Below, piece after piece: positions 5,196 through 53,647 of a DNA stretch of 64,000 bases. The stretch's first letter is position 1. Each line of letters begins with the position of its first letter. The notes beneath the pieces are model-generated. The model was not told the origin of the DNA and ran no database searches. It saw nothing but the letters and a program-made list of their open reading frames with translations. Made by a program: the position numbers and the translations under genes. Source of the DNA: Streptomyces sp. P3 (lineage in GTDB: Bacteria > Actinomycetota > Actinomycetes > Streptomycetales > Streptomycetaceae); the NCBI RefSeq assembly GCF_003032475.1, contig NZ_CP028369.1, positions 7,502,001 to 7,566,000 of the forward strand, read 5' to 3'.

Positions 5196-5696
5196 ACGAC
5201 GGTCAGCGGTCGCCGTGGTGCTCCCGGTGACCGGGCACATGAGCGGGACCACTCCGGTGAAGGGTGCCCTGACCGCCGCACCGCCGCGTCCCCTGCACAG
5301 GCTCCTCCGCCCGCCGCGTCGAGGACGTGCGGGTGATCCTCCTCGACGCGGCCGGCGACGTCGTGGACACGCCCACCACGGGTGGGGGCGGCGTCCTCCG
5401 CTCCGGCGGCCTCTCCCGCCGCGGGCGTGCCGTCGCCGCCGCCGGTCCTCCGCCGGTCGCCACCGTCCGCCGGTCGTCACCGTCCTCCGGGCGGCCGACG
5501 GCGGCCGACCGGAACGCGATCCGCGGTCCGGTCACGAGGGCTGAGCCCGCTCCGGGCGGCCACGCGACCTGCGGCGTACCCCGGCGTACCCGGGGGGAAA
5601 CCAATTCCGTCATTGCCGCACATGCCCACGGGCGTGGCCGTACGGTGGTGCTGCGGGACAGATCTTGCACAGCTCTGGGGAGAGAGGGCCTGGGCC
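5196..5696. other. intergenic region without a convincing gene
   Basis: About 500 bases of very GC-rich sequence separate the SRPBCC gene from the phosphatase gene. Open frames here lack start signals and recognisable folds. A short plus-strand stretch from 5327 reads VRVILLDAAGDVVDT and faintly recalls a NUDIX first strand, but nothing continues it. The phosphatase promoter must lie in the last 100 bases. Confidence 0.5.
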
Positions 5697-8219
5697 ATGG
5701 ACCGTGGCACCGAGAGGGACGCGCCTTTCAGCCGCGGAGCCGGCGGGGAGACGGCGGACCGGGCGGGAGGGGAGCGCGCACGGCCGCAGGGCGACCTGCC
5801 CGTGGACGCCGGGCGCGTCCCGCTGGCCGTGGTCGTGGTGGACCGCGAAGGTCTCGTCTCCCACTGGAGCACCGGCGCACGCCGGCTCTTCGGCGTCGGC
5901 AAGGACGAGGCGATCGGCCGCCCGGCGATCGATCTGCTGCCCGTCGCCGGCGCGCTCCCCGAACCCGACGACGACCTGCCCTACGGCGACTTCCCGGGCG
6001 GCGCCTACAGCGAGTACGGCGCCTACGACGGTCTCGGACCCGGACTGGACTCCTCCCTGGACCGCGGACTCGGCTACCCGGCGGCCGGCCGGGCCCGGCT
6101 GACCGTGCCCGAGCGGGACCGCGTCGACGTGCTCTGGTGGGCCTACCCGCTGGCCGGGCCGGGGACGGAACGGCTGCTGGTGCTGGCCGCCGACGCGGCG
6201 GTCCTGCGCCGGACGGAACCGGCGGACGCCCTGGCCGTGGAACGCGTCGCGCCCGGCTTCGCCGTGCACACCGACTTCCCCGGCGCGGCGGATCTCGCCC
6301 GCCGGCTGCCCGAGATCCTGCCCAGCATGAGCGTCGGCGAGAGCGCCCGCATCGTCGGTCAGATCCTCGAACTCGGCTATCCCGTGCTGGAGTTCAGCCA
6401 GAACGAACGGGTGCCCGTGACTCCCGACTGGGGGGTGGCTTGGCGCGTCGAGCGAAGAGAGCGCCGCGAGCACGCCGCCCGCGCCGCCGCCGAAGGGCGG
6501 CCGATACCCGACCACGCGGCCGACGAGGGCGACGACCTCGAGTACCTCGCCGTCCGTGAGCGTCTGGAGTTCCTCAACGAGGTCAGCGGGCGGATCGGCA
6601 CCTCCCTCGATCTCTCCCGCACCATCGTCGAGGTCAGCAGAGCCGTCGTGCCGCGCTTCACCGACGTGGCCGGCACCTATCTGCGCGAACAGGTCGTCGC
6701 CGGTGAGGGCTTCCCCGAGGGTGTGCCGGACACGACCACCATGTGGCACCGGGTCGCCCTCGAGCACACCGACGAACCCGGCCGCTGGGACGATGTCGTG
6801 CCCGTCGGCGAGGCCATGCCGTTCCCCGCGCACACCCCGTTCTTCCAGTGCATGACCACGGGCGAGCCGGTTCTCGTGCCGCGCATCAGCGAGCAGATGG
6901 GCCACGCCATCGCCTCGCAGTTCGACAAGCGCGACATCCGGCCCCTCATCACCGGCCGCTCCATGCTGGTCGTCCCGCTGAAGGCGCGCAACGTCGTCCT
7001 CGGTTTCATGATCCTGCTGCGCCACCCCGAGCGCGTCGAGTTCAACGACATGGACCGGGTCACCGGCGCCGAACTCGCCGCCCGCGCCGGCCTCGTGCTC
7101 GACAACGCCCGCATGTACACCTACCAGGAGTCCGTCGCCGAGACCCTCCAGGACAGCATGCTGCCGCACATCCCGCGCCGGATGGCGGGTTGCGACATCG
7201 CCACCCGTTATCTGCCGGGCACCCTGCTGGGGCGGGTCGGCGGTGACTGGTTCGACTCGGTGAAGCTGCACGGCGCCCGCACCGCCCTCGTCGTCGGCGA
7301 CGTCATGGGCCACGGCCTCAACTCGGCCGCCATGATGGGCCAGTTGCGCACCGCCGTGCAGACCATGGCCGCCCTGGACCTGCCGCCCGCCCAACTGCTG
7401 CGCAACCTCGACGACCTGGCCCAGCGGCTGGGCGACGGCTATCTCGCGACCTGTCTGTACGCCGTGTACGACCCGATCGCCGGCGAACTGCACCTCGCCA
7501 ACGCGGGCCACATCCCGCCCGTGCTGGTGCGCGCCGCCGACGGCCGCAGTGAACTCCTCGAACTGCCCACCGGCGCGCCCATCGGCGTCGGCGGCGTGCC
7601 CTTCGAGGCGGTGCGGGTGCCCGTGGCGCCGGGCGACCGGCTGGTGATGTGCACCGACGGGCTCGTGGAGATGCGGGGCGAGGACATCGGCGTCGGTCTG
7701 GCGACCCTGTGCGAGTCCGCCGCCCATCCGGCCGCCTCGATGGACGACGCCTGCGACACCATCATCCGCGCCCTCAACACCCGGGGCGGCCGCAAGGACG
7801 ACGTCGCCCTGCTGATGGCCCGACTGGGCGGCATCGCACCGCGGGACGTCGCCGAACGGCGGTTCCCCCCGGACCCGGCGGAGGTCGGCCGGGCGCGGGC
7901 GGCGGTCCGCGAGCAGCTGCACGACTGGGGGCTCGGCGAGGCGGCCGGCACCGCCGAACTCCTGGTGAGCGAGCTCGTCACCAACGCCGTACGGCACTCC
8001 CGGCGCAGCCCCGTGACCGTGCGTCTGGTCCGCGGCGACACCCTGCTGTGCGAGGTCGACGACGACGATCACGAGCTGCCCACCCTGCTGAGCGCCGGTC
8101 CCGGCGACGAGGTCGGGCGCGGACTGCGCGTGGTGAGCACGCTGGCCCGCGAGTGGGGCGCCAGCCGTACCCGCTCGGGGAAGTCCGTGTGGTTCGAACT
8201 GGCGCTGCCGCGGCGCTGA
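5697..8219 (+). CDS. PAS-GAF-SpoIIE phosphatase with C-terminal HATPase (anti-sigma-type) domain
   Basis: This 840-residue cytoplasmic signalling protein probably controls a partner-switching pathway: a PP2C-type phosphatase for an anti-sigma-factor antagonist fused to an RsbW-like ATPase. A PAS region covers about residues 40-90 (VPLAVVVVDREG). A GAF domain covers about 285-475 (LEFLNEVSGRIGTSLDL). The SpoIIE/PP2C domain runs about 478-711 with metal-binding GGDWFD and GDVMGHGLNSA. A GHKL ATPase domain occupies about 718-839 with the N-box ELVTNAVRHS. The frame is open upstream, but ATG 5697 gives the usual short disordered N-terminus, and a purine-rich GGGGAGAGAGG precedes it. A hairpin follows the stop. 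Confidence 0.92.
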   Translation: MDRGTERDAPFSRGAGGETADRAGGERARPQGDLPVDAGRVPLAVVVVDREGLVSHWSTGARRLFGVGKDEAIGRPAIDLLPVAGALPEPDDDLPYGDFPGGAYSEYGAYDGLGPGLDSSLDRGLGYPAAGRARLTVPERDRVDVLWWAYPLAGPGTERLLVLAADAAVLRRTEPADALAVERVAPGFAVHTDFPGAADLARRLPEILPSMSVGESARIVGQILELGYPVLEFSQNERVPVTPDWGVAWRVERRERREHAARAAAEGRPIPDHAADEGDDLEYLAVRERLEFLNEVSGRIGTSLDLSRTIVEVSRAVVPRFTDVAGTYLREQVVAGEGFPEGVPDTTTMWHRVALEHTDEPGRWDDVVPVGEAMPFPAHTPFFQCMTTGEPVLVPRISEQMGHAIASQFDKRDIRPLITGRSMLVVPLKARNVVLGFMILLRHPERVEFNDMDRVTGAELAARAGLVLDNARMYTYQESVAETLQDSMLPHIPRRMAGCDIATRYLPGTLLGRVGGDWFDSVKLHGARTALVVGDVMGHGLNSAAMMGQLRTAVQTMAALDLPPAQLLRNLDDLAQRLGDGYLATCLYAVYDPIAGELHLANAGHIPPVLVRAADGRSELLELPTGAPIGVGGVPFEAVRVPVAPGDRLVMCTDGLVEMRGEDIGVGLATLCESAAHPAASMDDACDTIIRALNTRGGRKDDVALLMARLGGIAPRDVAERRFPPDPAEVGRARAAVREQLHDWGLGEAAGTAELLVSELVTNAVRHSRRSPVTVRLVRGDTLLCEVDDDDHELPTLLSAGPGDEVGRGLRVVSTLAREWGASRTRSGKSVWFELALPRR

Positions 8220-50168: not shown

Positions 50169-50606
50169 TCAGACGAGTCCGGTCAGACCCCTGATCGCCG
50201 ACTGGGCCCACTCCTGCGCTCCCACCGCCGTTCCCGCGGCCAGACCGGTCGCCACGGGGGCCAGGGCCCCCTTGAGCGTGGTGACCGCACGGCGGACGCG
50301 GCCGGGCTCGGGGGAGCCGGAGCCGGTGATCTCCGCGATGACCTCCTCGGCCGCCGACGCTGCGTCCGCGCGGTCGCGGTCGTCGAGGCCCGCCCCGGGC
50401 AGCTGCTGGAGCAGCTCGGTCACCAGCGCCGCGAGCGCCTCGTAACCGGGTGCGACCGAGCCGTCGTTGATCTGCTGGTTCTGGGTGACCGTCCCGTTGT
50501 TCCAGGCCAACTGGAGGTTCGAGGCACCCTGGTTGAACACCGGGCCGTCGTAGTGGTTCACCTGCTGCGGGTCGTTCGCACCGTTCGCTGCGTTCGGGTC
50601 GTTCAC
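50169..50606 (-). CDS. small helical protein with RHIM-like motif
   Basis: The 145-residue protein has two parts. Residues 13-42 contain QQVNHYDGPVFNQ followed by LQLAWNNGTVTQNQQ, where the Q-L-A-W-N-N core resembles the RHIM consensus (hydrophobic-Q-hydrophobic-G-x-x-N). Residues 48-145 are helical: ALAALVTELLQQL, then DRADAASAAEEVIAEI and RRAVTTLKGALAPVA, the style seen in bacterial conflict proteins. GTG 50606 has GGAG eight bases upstream. An ATG at 50729 in frame would add 41 Pro/His-rich residues and overlap the beta-helix gene by 38 bases. The same motif ends the upstream beta-helix protein, so the pair probably interacts through it. Confidence 0.7.
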   Translation of the reverse strand: MNDPNAANGANDPQQVNHYDGPVFNQGASNLQLAWNNGTVTQNQQINDGSVAPGYEALAALVTELLQQLPGAGLDDRDRADAASAAEEVIAEITGSGSPEPGRVRRAVTTLKGALAPVATGLAAGTAVGAQEWAQSAIRGLTGLV

Positions 50607-50646
50607 CGGCTGGCTCCGTCCGGGTGGGTGGGGTCGGTTTGTGCGG

Positions 50647-50682
50647 TGGGCGGGGTGGGCGGGGTGGGAGGGGTGGGAGGGG
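50647..50682 (+). repeat. G-tract repeat, potential G-quadruplex
   Basis: GGGCGGGG, GGGCGGGG, GGGAGGGG and GGGAGGGG occur consecutively, separated by single T. This gives eight runs of three or more G on the plus strand between the two RHIM-like-motif genes. Confidence 0.7.
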
Positions 50683-50691
50683 TCGGACGCG

Positions 50692-52467
50692 TCAGGGTCG
50701 ATCGGCGGGGTCGCCGCGGCCGGCGTCATCGGTCCGCGCGGTCTGCCCGGTCCGTTCGCTCCGGTCGTCCGGTCTGCTCTGATGTGTCTGCTGCTGGACG
50801 ACGTTGGTGTTGCCCCACGCCAACTGGGCGCTGTGCACGGCCTCCACGAACACGGGGCCGTGGTAGTTGTTCACGATCGTCGGCGGCGGGGCGGGCTCGG
50901 TGATCTCCTTGACCGGCAGCGTCGTCCGCAACGAGACCAGCTGGACCCGCCCGTTGTGCTGCACCGCCGTTCCCGACGTGCCGGTGACGGAGCAGTCCAC
51001 CAGTCGGCCGCCGCACTCCCCGTCGCAGCGCAGGCCCGTGGCCGCGCAGTCCTCGAAGCTGCCGCCGGTGACGTCCAGATACGCGGAGCCCGTCCCGCAC
51101 AGGCCGTACGACTGCGCACCCGTCACCGTGAGGTTGCGGGCCACGAGCCGTGCCGTCCCGAACGCCAGGGCCCCACCGGTCTCCACCCCGGTGACGGTGC
51201 AGTCGTGCAGGTGCAGTTGGGCCTCCTCGCCCGCGCCGAAGCCCAGCAGCCCGCGTTCGGCCGTGGCCCCCCTGAGCGTCACCCGGGACTGGCCGACGGC
51301 GGCCACGGCGATCATGTCGAAGTCACCGAAGGACACGCCGGTGAGCTCCGCCGTGGTGCCGCCGTTGCCCTTGGCGTCCAGACCGAACGGGCAGCGCTCG
51401 ACGCGGACGTCCTCGAACACGGCCTTGCTCTCGTCCCAGACCCGCAGCCCGACGCCGGTCAGGTCGCGCACCTGGCAGCCGGTGAACCTGCCTCTGGCGC
51501 GATCCGTGACGGCGATGCCCACATTGCCCCCCGAGACGCGGCAGCCGTCGACCCGCGGAGCACCGCCCCGCGTCGACAGCACCGCGACGTTGCCCGCGTC
51601 GACGACCTCGCAGTCCTCGAAGGCGCCAAGGCCCGCGTCCTGGACGTGGATGCCCGTGTCACGGCAGCCGGTGAACACACAGCCCCGCACCTGAGGGTCG
51701 GCGCCGCTCGCCACCACGATCCCGTTCTCGGCATCGAGCACCCGGGTGCCACGGACGGCGCCCCGGGACCGCTCGACGAACTCGAGCGCCGCCGCGTGCA
51801 CCCCCTCGATCCGGCAGTCCTCGACGGTCAACTCCGCCTGCGCGTCGGCGATCACCGCCGTCCGCTCGGTGCCGGTGATCTCGCATCCGGTGAGGTGCGC
51901 CCAGGCGTCGCTGACGCGCACGCCGTGGATGGCGGCGCCGTCGACACGGCTGTCGCGGACCGTGACCCGGGCGCTCTCGATCACGGCGATCGCGTTGTCG
52001 GCCGCACCGGCGAACCGGCACCGCTCGACGACTCCGGTGCTGCCGGCGAAGACGGTCCGGCCGAACCGGAATCCGCTGTCCGTCAGGGTCGCGCAGGTGC
52101 CCGTCGGCACATGCACGCACACCCCGTGGTGTGCCCGCACCTCGACCCGGTCGAGGGTGAGGAATCCGGCCCGGCAGTGGACGACTCCGGCGTCGGCGTC
52201 GCGGCCGGTGAGCACGAGGCCGCGGACCACGACCGAGCCGAGGGTGGTGAGCACGGTGCCCCGCGGCCGGCCCAGTACCACGGAGCCGGGTTCGCCGGCC
52301 GCCACCAGCTCGACCTCGCCGTGGACCGTGAGCTGCTCCTCGTACCGGCCGGGCGCGATCTCGATGCGCGCGGCGCGTCCGCGTGCGGCCGCGGCCCGCA
52401 GCGCGGACTGGATGTCGGGATGCGTGCCGCGGCCTCCGCGCGCGGAGACGACGTACTTCCTGACCAT
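50692..52467 (-). CDS. right-handed parallel beta-helix protein with C-terminal RHIM-like motif
   Basis: The 591-residue protein consists largely of short pectate-lyase-like rungs. The first region, HPDIQSALRAAAARG then IEIAPGRYEEQLTVHGEVEL, is the usual cap. About 20 rungs follow with patterns such as VTVRDSRVDGAAIHGVRV, AFEDCEVVDAGNVAVLS and GRLVDCSVTGTSGTAV up to about residue 510. After a Pro-rich linker, residues 530-560 read TIVNNYHGPVFVEAVHSAQ then LAWGNTNVVQQQT, matching the segment in the small protein downstream. A disordered Arg/Asp tail ends it. Similar beta-helices in Streptomyces are sometimes fused to AAA ATPases, but here the RHIM-like motif takes that place. No signal peptide is present. 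Confidence 0.8.
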   Translation of the reverse strand: MVRKYVVSARGGRGTHPDIQSALRAAAARGRAARIEIAPGRYEEQLTVHGEVELVAAGEPGSVVLGRPRGTVLTTLGSVVVRGLVLTGRDADAGVVHCRAGFLTLDRVEVRAHHGVCVHVPTGTCATLTDSGFRFGRTVFAGSTGVVERCRFAGAADNAIAVIESARVTVRDSRVDGAAIHGVRVSDAWAHLTGCEITGTERTAVIADAQAELTVEDCRIEGVHAAALEFVERSRGAVRGTRVLDAENGIVVASGADPQVRGCVFTGCRDTGIHVQDAGLGAFEDCEVVDAGNVAVLSTRGGAPRVDGCRVSGGNVGIAVTDRARGRFTGCQVRDLTGVGLRVWDESKAVFEDVRVERCPFGLDAKGNGGTTAELTGVSFGDFDMIAVAAVGQSRVTLRGATAERGLLGFGAGEEAQLHLHDCTVTGVETGGALAFGTARLVARNLTVTGAQSYGLCGTGSAYLDVTGGSFEDCAATGLRCDGECGGRLVDCSVTGTSGTAVQHNGRVQLVSLRTTLPVKEITEPAPPPTIVNNYHGPVFVEAVHSAQLAWGNTNVVQQQTHQSRPDDRSERTGQTARTDDAGRGDPADRP

Positions 52468-52669: not shown

Positions 52670-53533
52670 TCAGACGCCGTCGCGGGCGTCCCGCAGGATC
52701 TGCTTGGTGTGCTCCGCGGACGCGGCGTGCGTCGTCATGTGGTCGAGGACCTCCAGATGGGCGGAGACCTCCTTGCGGTCGTCGAGGTAGAGCGCGCCGG
52801 TCAGATACTCGGTGACGACCATGTCGGGCAGCTCGGGCTCGCCGAAACGGAACAGCGAGAACGGCGCGGACGTCCCGGGATGCGGGCCCGCCGCGAACTC
52901 GCAGACCTGCAGAGTGATCCGGTCCCGCTCGGCGAACTCCACCAGCTTGTCCAGCTGTTCGGCCATCACGGCGGCGTCGACGCTGACCGGCCGGCGCAGC
53001 ACCGTCTCGTCCATCACCACCCACAGGCGGGGCGGTTCGGCGCTCTCCAGCAGTCGCTGGCGCGCCATGCGCAGAGCCACGTGCCGTTCGAGGGAGTCCG
53101 GCCGTGTGCGCCCGACGGTCCCCGCCTCCAGCACCGCCGACGCGTAGGCCCGCGTCTGCAGCAGGCCGGGCACGAAGTGCGGCTCGTAGGAGCGGATCAG
53201 CCGTGCCGCGCCCTCCAGGCTCACATACAGGCTGAACCACTCCGGCAGGACGTCGTGGAAGCGCTGCCACCAGCCGGGCCGGTTCGCCTCCTCGGTGAGC
53301 GAGACGAACGCCCCCGCCTCGTCCCGGGGGACGCCGTACGCCTCCAGGAGGACCTGCACGTACGGCACCTTCAGCGCGACGTCGGCCGTCTCCATGCGCC
53401 GTACCGTGGCCGGCGCGACGCGCAGGGCACGGGCGGCCTCGTCGCGGCTGAGGCCGGCCGCCTCGCGCAGTTCCTGCAGCCGTCTGCCGAGTACCACCTG
53501 GCCCACCGTGGGCGCGGGCCGTCGCTCACTCAC
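52670..53533 (-). CDS. XRE-family regulator with DUF5753 (Scr1-like)
   Basis: The 287-residue protein has an N-terminal helix-turn-helix (about residues 10-65: LGRRLQELREAAGLSRDEAARALRVAPATVRRMETAD). A DUF5753 region follows (about 90-280: SYEPHFVPGLLQTRAYASAVL, LWVVMDETVLRRPV, VEFAERDRITLQVCEF, MVVTEYLTGALYLDD). This architecture is very common in Streptomyces and often paired with a DUF397 gene, which is absent next to it here. GTG 53533 has GGGAGA six bases upstream. It lies 202 bases upstream of the beta-helix gene on the same strand, so a regulatory link is possible but unproven. Confidence 0.9.
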   Translation of the reverse strand: MSERRPAPTVGQVVLGRRLQELREAAGLSRDEAARALRVAPATVRRMETADVALKVPYVQVLLEAYGVPRDEAGAFVSLTEEANRPGWWQRFHDVLPEWFSLYVSLEGAARLIRSYEPHFVPGLLQTRAYASAVLEAGTVGRTRPDSLERHVALRMARQRLLESAEPPRLWVVMDETVLRRPVSVDAAVMAEQLDKLVEFAERDRITLQVCEFAAGPHPGTSAPFSLFRFGEPELPDMVVTEYLTGALYLDDRKEVSAHLEVLDHMTTHAASAEHTKQILRDARDGV

Positions 53534-53647
53534 CCCACGTCTCCCCTGCGTGTCGAGGCACGCGGGCCAGTGTGCCACGTCCCGGCCCCGATCTCACGGA
53601 TAGCGGAGTGGGGCATTCAACCGCATGACACGGCGGCCGACCGGGTG

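Follow-up and report, generated by a model that had tools for sequence, protein, structure and literature searches.

Pairs of adjacent bacterial genes whose products are connected by BASS motifs have been described, and in the excerpts available from that report the existence of NLR-independent bacterial signalling amyloids was left as an open question (PMC7889193). According to the available parts of PMC7889193 and PMC8086366, the BASS/BELL-NLR pairs of filamentous bacteria are encoded by adjacent or overlapping genes, carry one short motif at the protein ends, include a small helical partner and occur also in actinobacteria. These features are found again in a gene pair of Streptomyces sp. 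P3, which codes for a beta-helix protein and a small helical protein sharing a 30-residue motif. The pair is located in the window, a stretch of 64,000 nucleotides from a genome of 9.85 Mb present as one contig. Both open reading frames were confirmed on the minus strand at the coordinates listed in Table 1.

Table 1. Features of the gene pair, with positions counted from the first nucleotide of the window.
Feature	Position	Strand	Extent	Basis
Beta-helix protein, whole gene	50692..52467	-	591 aa	
Right-handed parallel beta-helix domain	50899..52467	-	residues 1-523	PF13229 (E 2e-41), AF2 model, fold matches
Short Pro-containing linker between beta-helix and motif	50878..50898	-	residues 524-530	sequence; pLDDT <50 from residue 528
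Motif copy 1, beta-helix protein	50788..50877	-	residues 531-560	motif HMM, E 3.0e-14 in own genome
Small protein, gene with most likely GTG start; motif, then four-helix domain	50169..50606	-	145 aa	RBS-like context, relatives
Motif copy 2, small protein	50475..50564	-	residues 15-44, counted from GTG	motif HMM, E 6.7e-14 in own genome
Helical domain of small protein	50169..50441	-	about residue 56 to stop	AF2 helices; DUF5955 and PDC-M14B matches

The first-pass annotation had described the two neighbours as a beta-helix protein and a small helical protein, and this was borne out by PF13229 and by the AF2 models, with a confident beta-helix in one protein and a four-helix domain in the other. 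For the large protein, the mean pLDDT was 87.8 over the whole chain, with strands extending to about residue 521. Its fold was matched by 55 chains at E<=0.001, among them lyases, epimerases and phage tail proteins, solved beta-helix proteins included. Profile matches were to beta-helix families only, apart from two weak ones (E 0.54 and E 0.031); the domain profile search identified no STAND NTPase or NLR receptor in this protein, and no signal peptide was evident by eye. A role of the beta-helix domain as sensor or platform is proposed.

The model of the small protein has a mean pLDDT of 71.6, with helices at residues 56-71, 76-94, 101-120 and 130-144 and an additional low-confidence helix (38-48) overlapping the end of the motif. 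The fold comparison gave no clear match for the four-helix domain, and a DUF5955 match was sub-threshold (E 0.0039). The small protein showed neither an enzymatic domain nor a clear membrane domain; the highest hydropathy over 19 residues was 1.16 for the protein of the window and ranged from 1.02 to 1.76 in a set of 18 sequences. The helical domain is proposed to be the effector or adaptor of the pair. The start at ATG 50729 given earlier, with 186 aa, is probably wrong, and translation most likely begins at GTG 50606, since GGACGGAG is located upstream of this codon and the relatives start at the aligned codon; the protein then has 145 aa, and a gap of 85 bp separates the two genes of the window. 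Residues 528-591 of the beta-helix protein, motif included, have a pLDDT <50, as does most of the motif of the small protein. Since the motif regions are of low confidence in both AF2 models, both motif tails are predicted to be disordered or flexible in the monomer.

An ungapped match with about half of 30 positions identical had been noticed between the two proteins, and it was reproduced, with 15/30 identities between residues 531-560 of the beta-helix protein and residues 15-44 of its small partner. When the two proteins were aligned locally without gaps, the best segment spanned 35 positions, of which 17 were identical, and reached a BLOSUM62 score of 84, far above 100 shuffles of the small protein (maximum 48, mean 33.1, s.d. 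3.7). The consensus is about GPVFxGxVSGxQxAWxNxxVxQxQ, with a conserved GPV upstream and QxQ downstream of the core. A chosen alignment of 21 rows has five invariant columns (P, A, N, Q, Q) and four nearly invariant ones, and the Trp is present in 31/32 motif copies of the beta-helix pairs. In the own genome only the two sites of the pair scored well in a motif HMM search at E<=10, a third hit being a fragment (E 3.9). The content of N and Q in the motif is high (8 and 11 of 30, with one charged residue), compared with a mean of 1.34 over 17426 predicted-gene windows; 16 and 10 of these, including those that overlap the motif itself, were equally extreme.

The side-by-side occurrence of the two genes was surveyed at several taxonomic levels. 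At E<=1e-40 the beta-helix was detected in 9/199 genomes of the genus, the own genome included, and in 9/9 of these, which were picked without use of the motif, the small gene was adjacent. The small protein was matched at E<=1e-3 in 25/199 genomes, many of the matches being weak. The cassette is sparse in the genus, the motif profile (E<=0.01) being found in 22/295 genomes. Fourteen of these 22 contain beta-helix pairs with both motifs, including one (G261) in which the beta-helix was matched only from residue 267 on. In another (G242), the beta-helix is reduced to residues 100-252 and the small gene is retained, with a partial motif; this truncated pair occupies about 5570-6370 of the locus (L100), on the OsmC side. 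For the other seven (G048, G049, G087, G096, G101, G149, G253), no beta-helix was present in the fetched stretch. A class-wide sample gave hits in 9/296 genomes and 3/114 genera, to which G494 and G539 contributed further pairs, G472 and G569 single proteins. In a phylum-wide sample the small-protein profile matched 7/346 genomes and 2/218 genera. In total, 16 pairs with two motifs were obtained, 7 of which were found via the motif itself. Both motifs were also present in 6/6 named loci, five from Streptomyces and one from Actinobacteria bacterium OV320; these may belong to species already represented among the genomes with the 16 pairs, so that the sets may overlap. The same short motif in the products of adjacent genes recurs in other actinobacterial pairs, and the motif is constrained in both partners.

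Within a pair, the two motif copies are more alike than across pairs. The identity of a motif to that of its own partner was 16.9, compared with 15.2 for other partners (n=16 pairs; permutation p 0.0001). When five near-duplicates (G013, G225, G539, G015, G269) were dropped, the values for the remaining 11/16 pairs were 17.0/30 versus 15.1 for cross pairs (p 0.0003), and with BLOSUM scores the excess had a p of 0.001 (11 of 16 pairs). This co-variation favours a like-with-like interaction; shared ancestry or gene conversion could partly cause the similarity within pairs.

In 14/16 pairs the genes overlap by 4 bp, and the window and G013 have the gap of 85 bp instead of the overlap, with the start context unchanged. 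When the genes on either side were compared for 17 loci, G242 among them, a group of 8 at the OsmC side and a group of 5 emerged, with G056, G174, G233 and G293 outside both. G174 and three members of the group of 8 have a methyltransferase homologue in common (48 to 50% identity), and G174 and G293 have a weak hit in common, so that five or six genomic settings were counted. Of 30 loci compared around the adjacent regulator, three contain the beta-helix, two (G062, G003) have OsmC nearby and represent syntenic sites without the pair, and one has OsmC further off; the remaining 24 are uninformative, neither OsmC nor the pair lying within the 1.5-kb flank. The best reading of these comparisons is that the pair forms a mobile, translationally coupled two-gene cassette. 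Directly upstream of the beta-helix gene, at 52670-53578 of the window (minus strand), an XRE regulator with DUF5753 is encoded. This regulator is common without the pair (91/121 genomes with a match at E<=1e-110) and therefore looks like local synteny. The three adjoining genes that were scanned code for OsmC and two XRE-type regulators, and no defence neighbour was identified among them.

The motif-helical unit also has relatives in tandem or fused form, and the motif is retained in proteins of quite dissimilar architecture. Such relatives adjoin GajA/GajB (Gabija), are located beside RAMA and DUF4209-type genes matching PADLOC candidates, and are present on plasmids; these links to Gabija and to plasmids hold for relatives of the small protein only and not for the beta-helix pair. 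Fifteen of the retrieved loci contain this unit or its helical domain and gave no beta-helix domain match. At L117:5695-9450 (G472, another family) the C-terminal part of GajA, which runs off the contig end, is followed by GajB and a motif-plus-helical gene, which is possibly a third Gabija component. G494, which also has a beta-helix pair, codes at L115:5698-7878 for a protein of 726 aa with an unmatched N-terminal region followed by motif and helical domain. The motif-helical proteins of L041, L042, L044 and L141 have a common N-terminal extension (FKxNxxGI...REIQRE), the L044 copy being split across two frames.

The beta-helix also has relatives of its own. A related beta-helix protein is encoded in the own genome (L096) and a diverged one on a plasmid (L142, 34.5% identity); unlike the protein of the pair, both carry a C-terminal AAA domain, which in L096 takes the place of the motif, and the plasmid protein has no motif. 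The AAA domain is presumably CbbX-like. On this plasmid, p1 of Streptomyces sp. BHT-5-2 (L142:1750-5304, L143:911-5761), the beta-helix-AAA gene overlaps a downstream gene for a CHAT-domain protein of 1616 aa, and the two are possibly a separate beta-helix conflict system.

The core tetrad of RHIM is (I/V)Q(I/V/L)G. The motif had been classified as RHIM-like; its aligned copies, however, have Ala at the Gly position of the tetrad in 21/21 cases, and strict RHIM membership is unsupported. Pfam, RHIM model included, gave 0 families for the 21 motif peptides at E<=10, with filters that may drop weak hits. One published BASS3 peptide scored 0.7 bits against the motif, a value reached by 3042/20000 of its own shuffles. 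From the idea of an amyloid-signalling pair of adjacent genes, the layout of BASS pairs with the motif in both products is supported, and the RHIM/BASS3 membership is not. As judged by eye from the BASS3 peptide given in PMC8086366, the motif resembles RHIM, PP and BASS3 motifs in the Q-hydrophobic-small-x-x-N spacing and a later hydrophobic position; it differs in its invariant Ala, near-invariant Trp, upstream GPV and downstream QxQ.

Taken together, the pair is read as an NTPase-free two-gene signalling cassette coupled by homotypic, amyloid-type assembly of the motif, with a stress, defence or cell-death output, to which a probability of roughly 0.55 is assigned. The beta-helix protein would sense a ligand or cluster on a target, and clustering would gather the motif tails. 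These might assemble homotypically into stacked beta-arches, like bacterial amyloid signalling sequences, and the assembled template would recruit the small protein via its own motif copy, so that the concentrated helical domains could then target the membrane or additional partners. Physical coupling of the two proteins by the motif is highly probable. The chances are about equal for and against an amyloid type of assembly, and a defence or cell-death role is similarly balanced; the purpose is most likely an output in stress, defence or cell death. A more far-reaching version is tentative and rather doubtful: an NTPase-free amyloid signalosome in which the beta-helix is both sensor and beta-solenoid scaffold nucleating the motif, a rod-shaped receptor replacing the NLR wheel, while the motif-helical unit is a general actinobacterial adaptor linking different sensors (beta-helix, DUF1508, other N-terminal regions, perhaps Gabija complexes) to one output.

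A somewhat improbable alternative, still to be taken seriously, is that the motif is a homotypic docking tag, by which the helical protein is held on the beta-helix scaffold in a non-amyloid complex of finite size, such as two paired beta-strands or a small beta-sandwich, without templated polymerisation. A specific interaction alone would suffice for the conserved pairing, the coupling and the similarity within pairs, and no likeness of the motif to known amyloid motif profiles was detected; its retention across such different architectures speaks against a docking tag, as does the nature of the tails, since tails which are alike, flexible and N/Q-rich more typically indicate homotypic stacking than complementary docking. 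The fold matches to lyases, epimerases and phage tail proteins would also suit a metabolic cassette, in which the beta-helix protein is an intracellular enzyme for a polysaccharide or some other polymer and the small protein its dedicated subunit, cap or chaperone. This is unlikely given the 15 loci without a beta-helix domain match, the relative with AAA in the own genome and the plasmid relative that precedes a CHAT gene.

Two genes, their overlap and the presence/absence pattern are also what a toxin-antitoxin module would display, the beta-helix protein keeping the helical protein inactive through the motif; with 591 aa being an unusual size for an antitoxin, and the small-protein unit being found without the beta-helix and fused to other regions, this is improbable to a still higher degree. 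Short biased segments may align by accident, but chance similarity or an annotation artefact has a negligible probability in view of the shuffle test and was refuted by the recurrence of the motif in pairs, including those found without it. Signalling by homotypic motif assembly is the preferred reading. The cassette is tractable, with two proteins, a single motif pair in its own genome and natural variants in relatives, and it could give a role to such beta-helix proteins and to motif-helical proteins near Gabija genes or on plasmids.

No literature was found on DUF5955 and PDC-M14, and a search for bRHIM gave nothing related. A beta-helix/small-helical amyloid pair is named in no title among the literature matches listed on beta-helix, amyloid signalling, BASS3 and Streptomyces antiphage/conflict systems; preprints and most subscription papers were outside this scope, so that the novelty of the pair is not proven. 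The motif and helical region match the C-terminal part of the PADLOC PDC-M14B models (E 6.6e-7 for the protein of the window). This is not a full-length match, as positions 157-254 of 267 are covered and nothing before 157. The EADs are described in the available part of PMC7159879 as adaptors with predicted homotypic binding that occur in duplicate in two adjacent genes, and the motif is likewise present in two neighbouring proteins; unlike the EADs, it is a tail of 30 residues and not a folded domain, and EAD8 matched the helical part of the small protein below the gathering score, over 34 residues (E 0.16). In contrast to the BASS/BELL-NLR pairs, a beta-helix that lacks an NTPase stands as putative receptor in place of an NLR, and, as far as the available parts of the reports on these pairs go, the layout is reversed, with the motif C-terminal in the large protein and N-terminal in its small partner. 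The cassette is thereby a compact candidate for the kind of NLR-independent bacterial signalling amyloid asked about in the available excerpts of PMC7889193.
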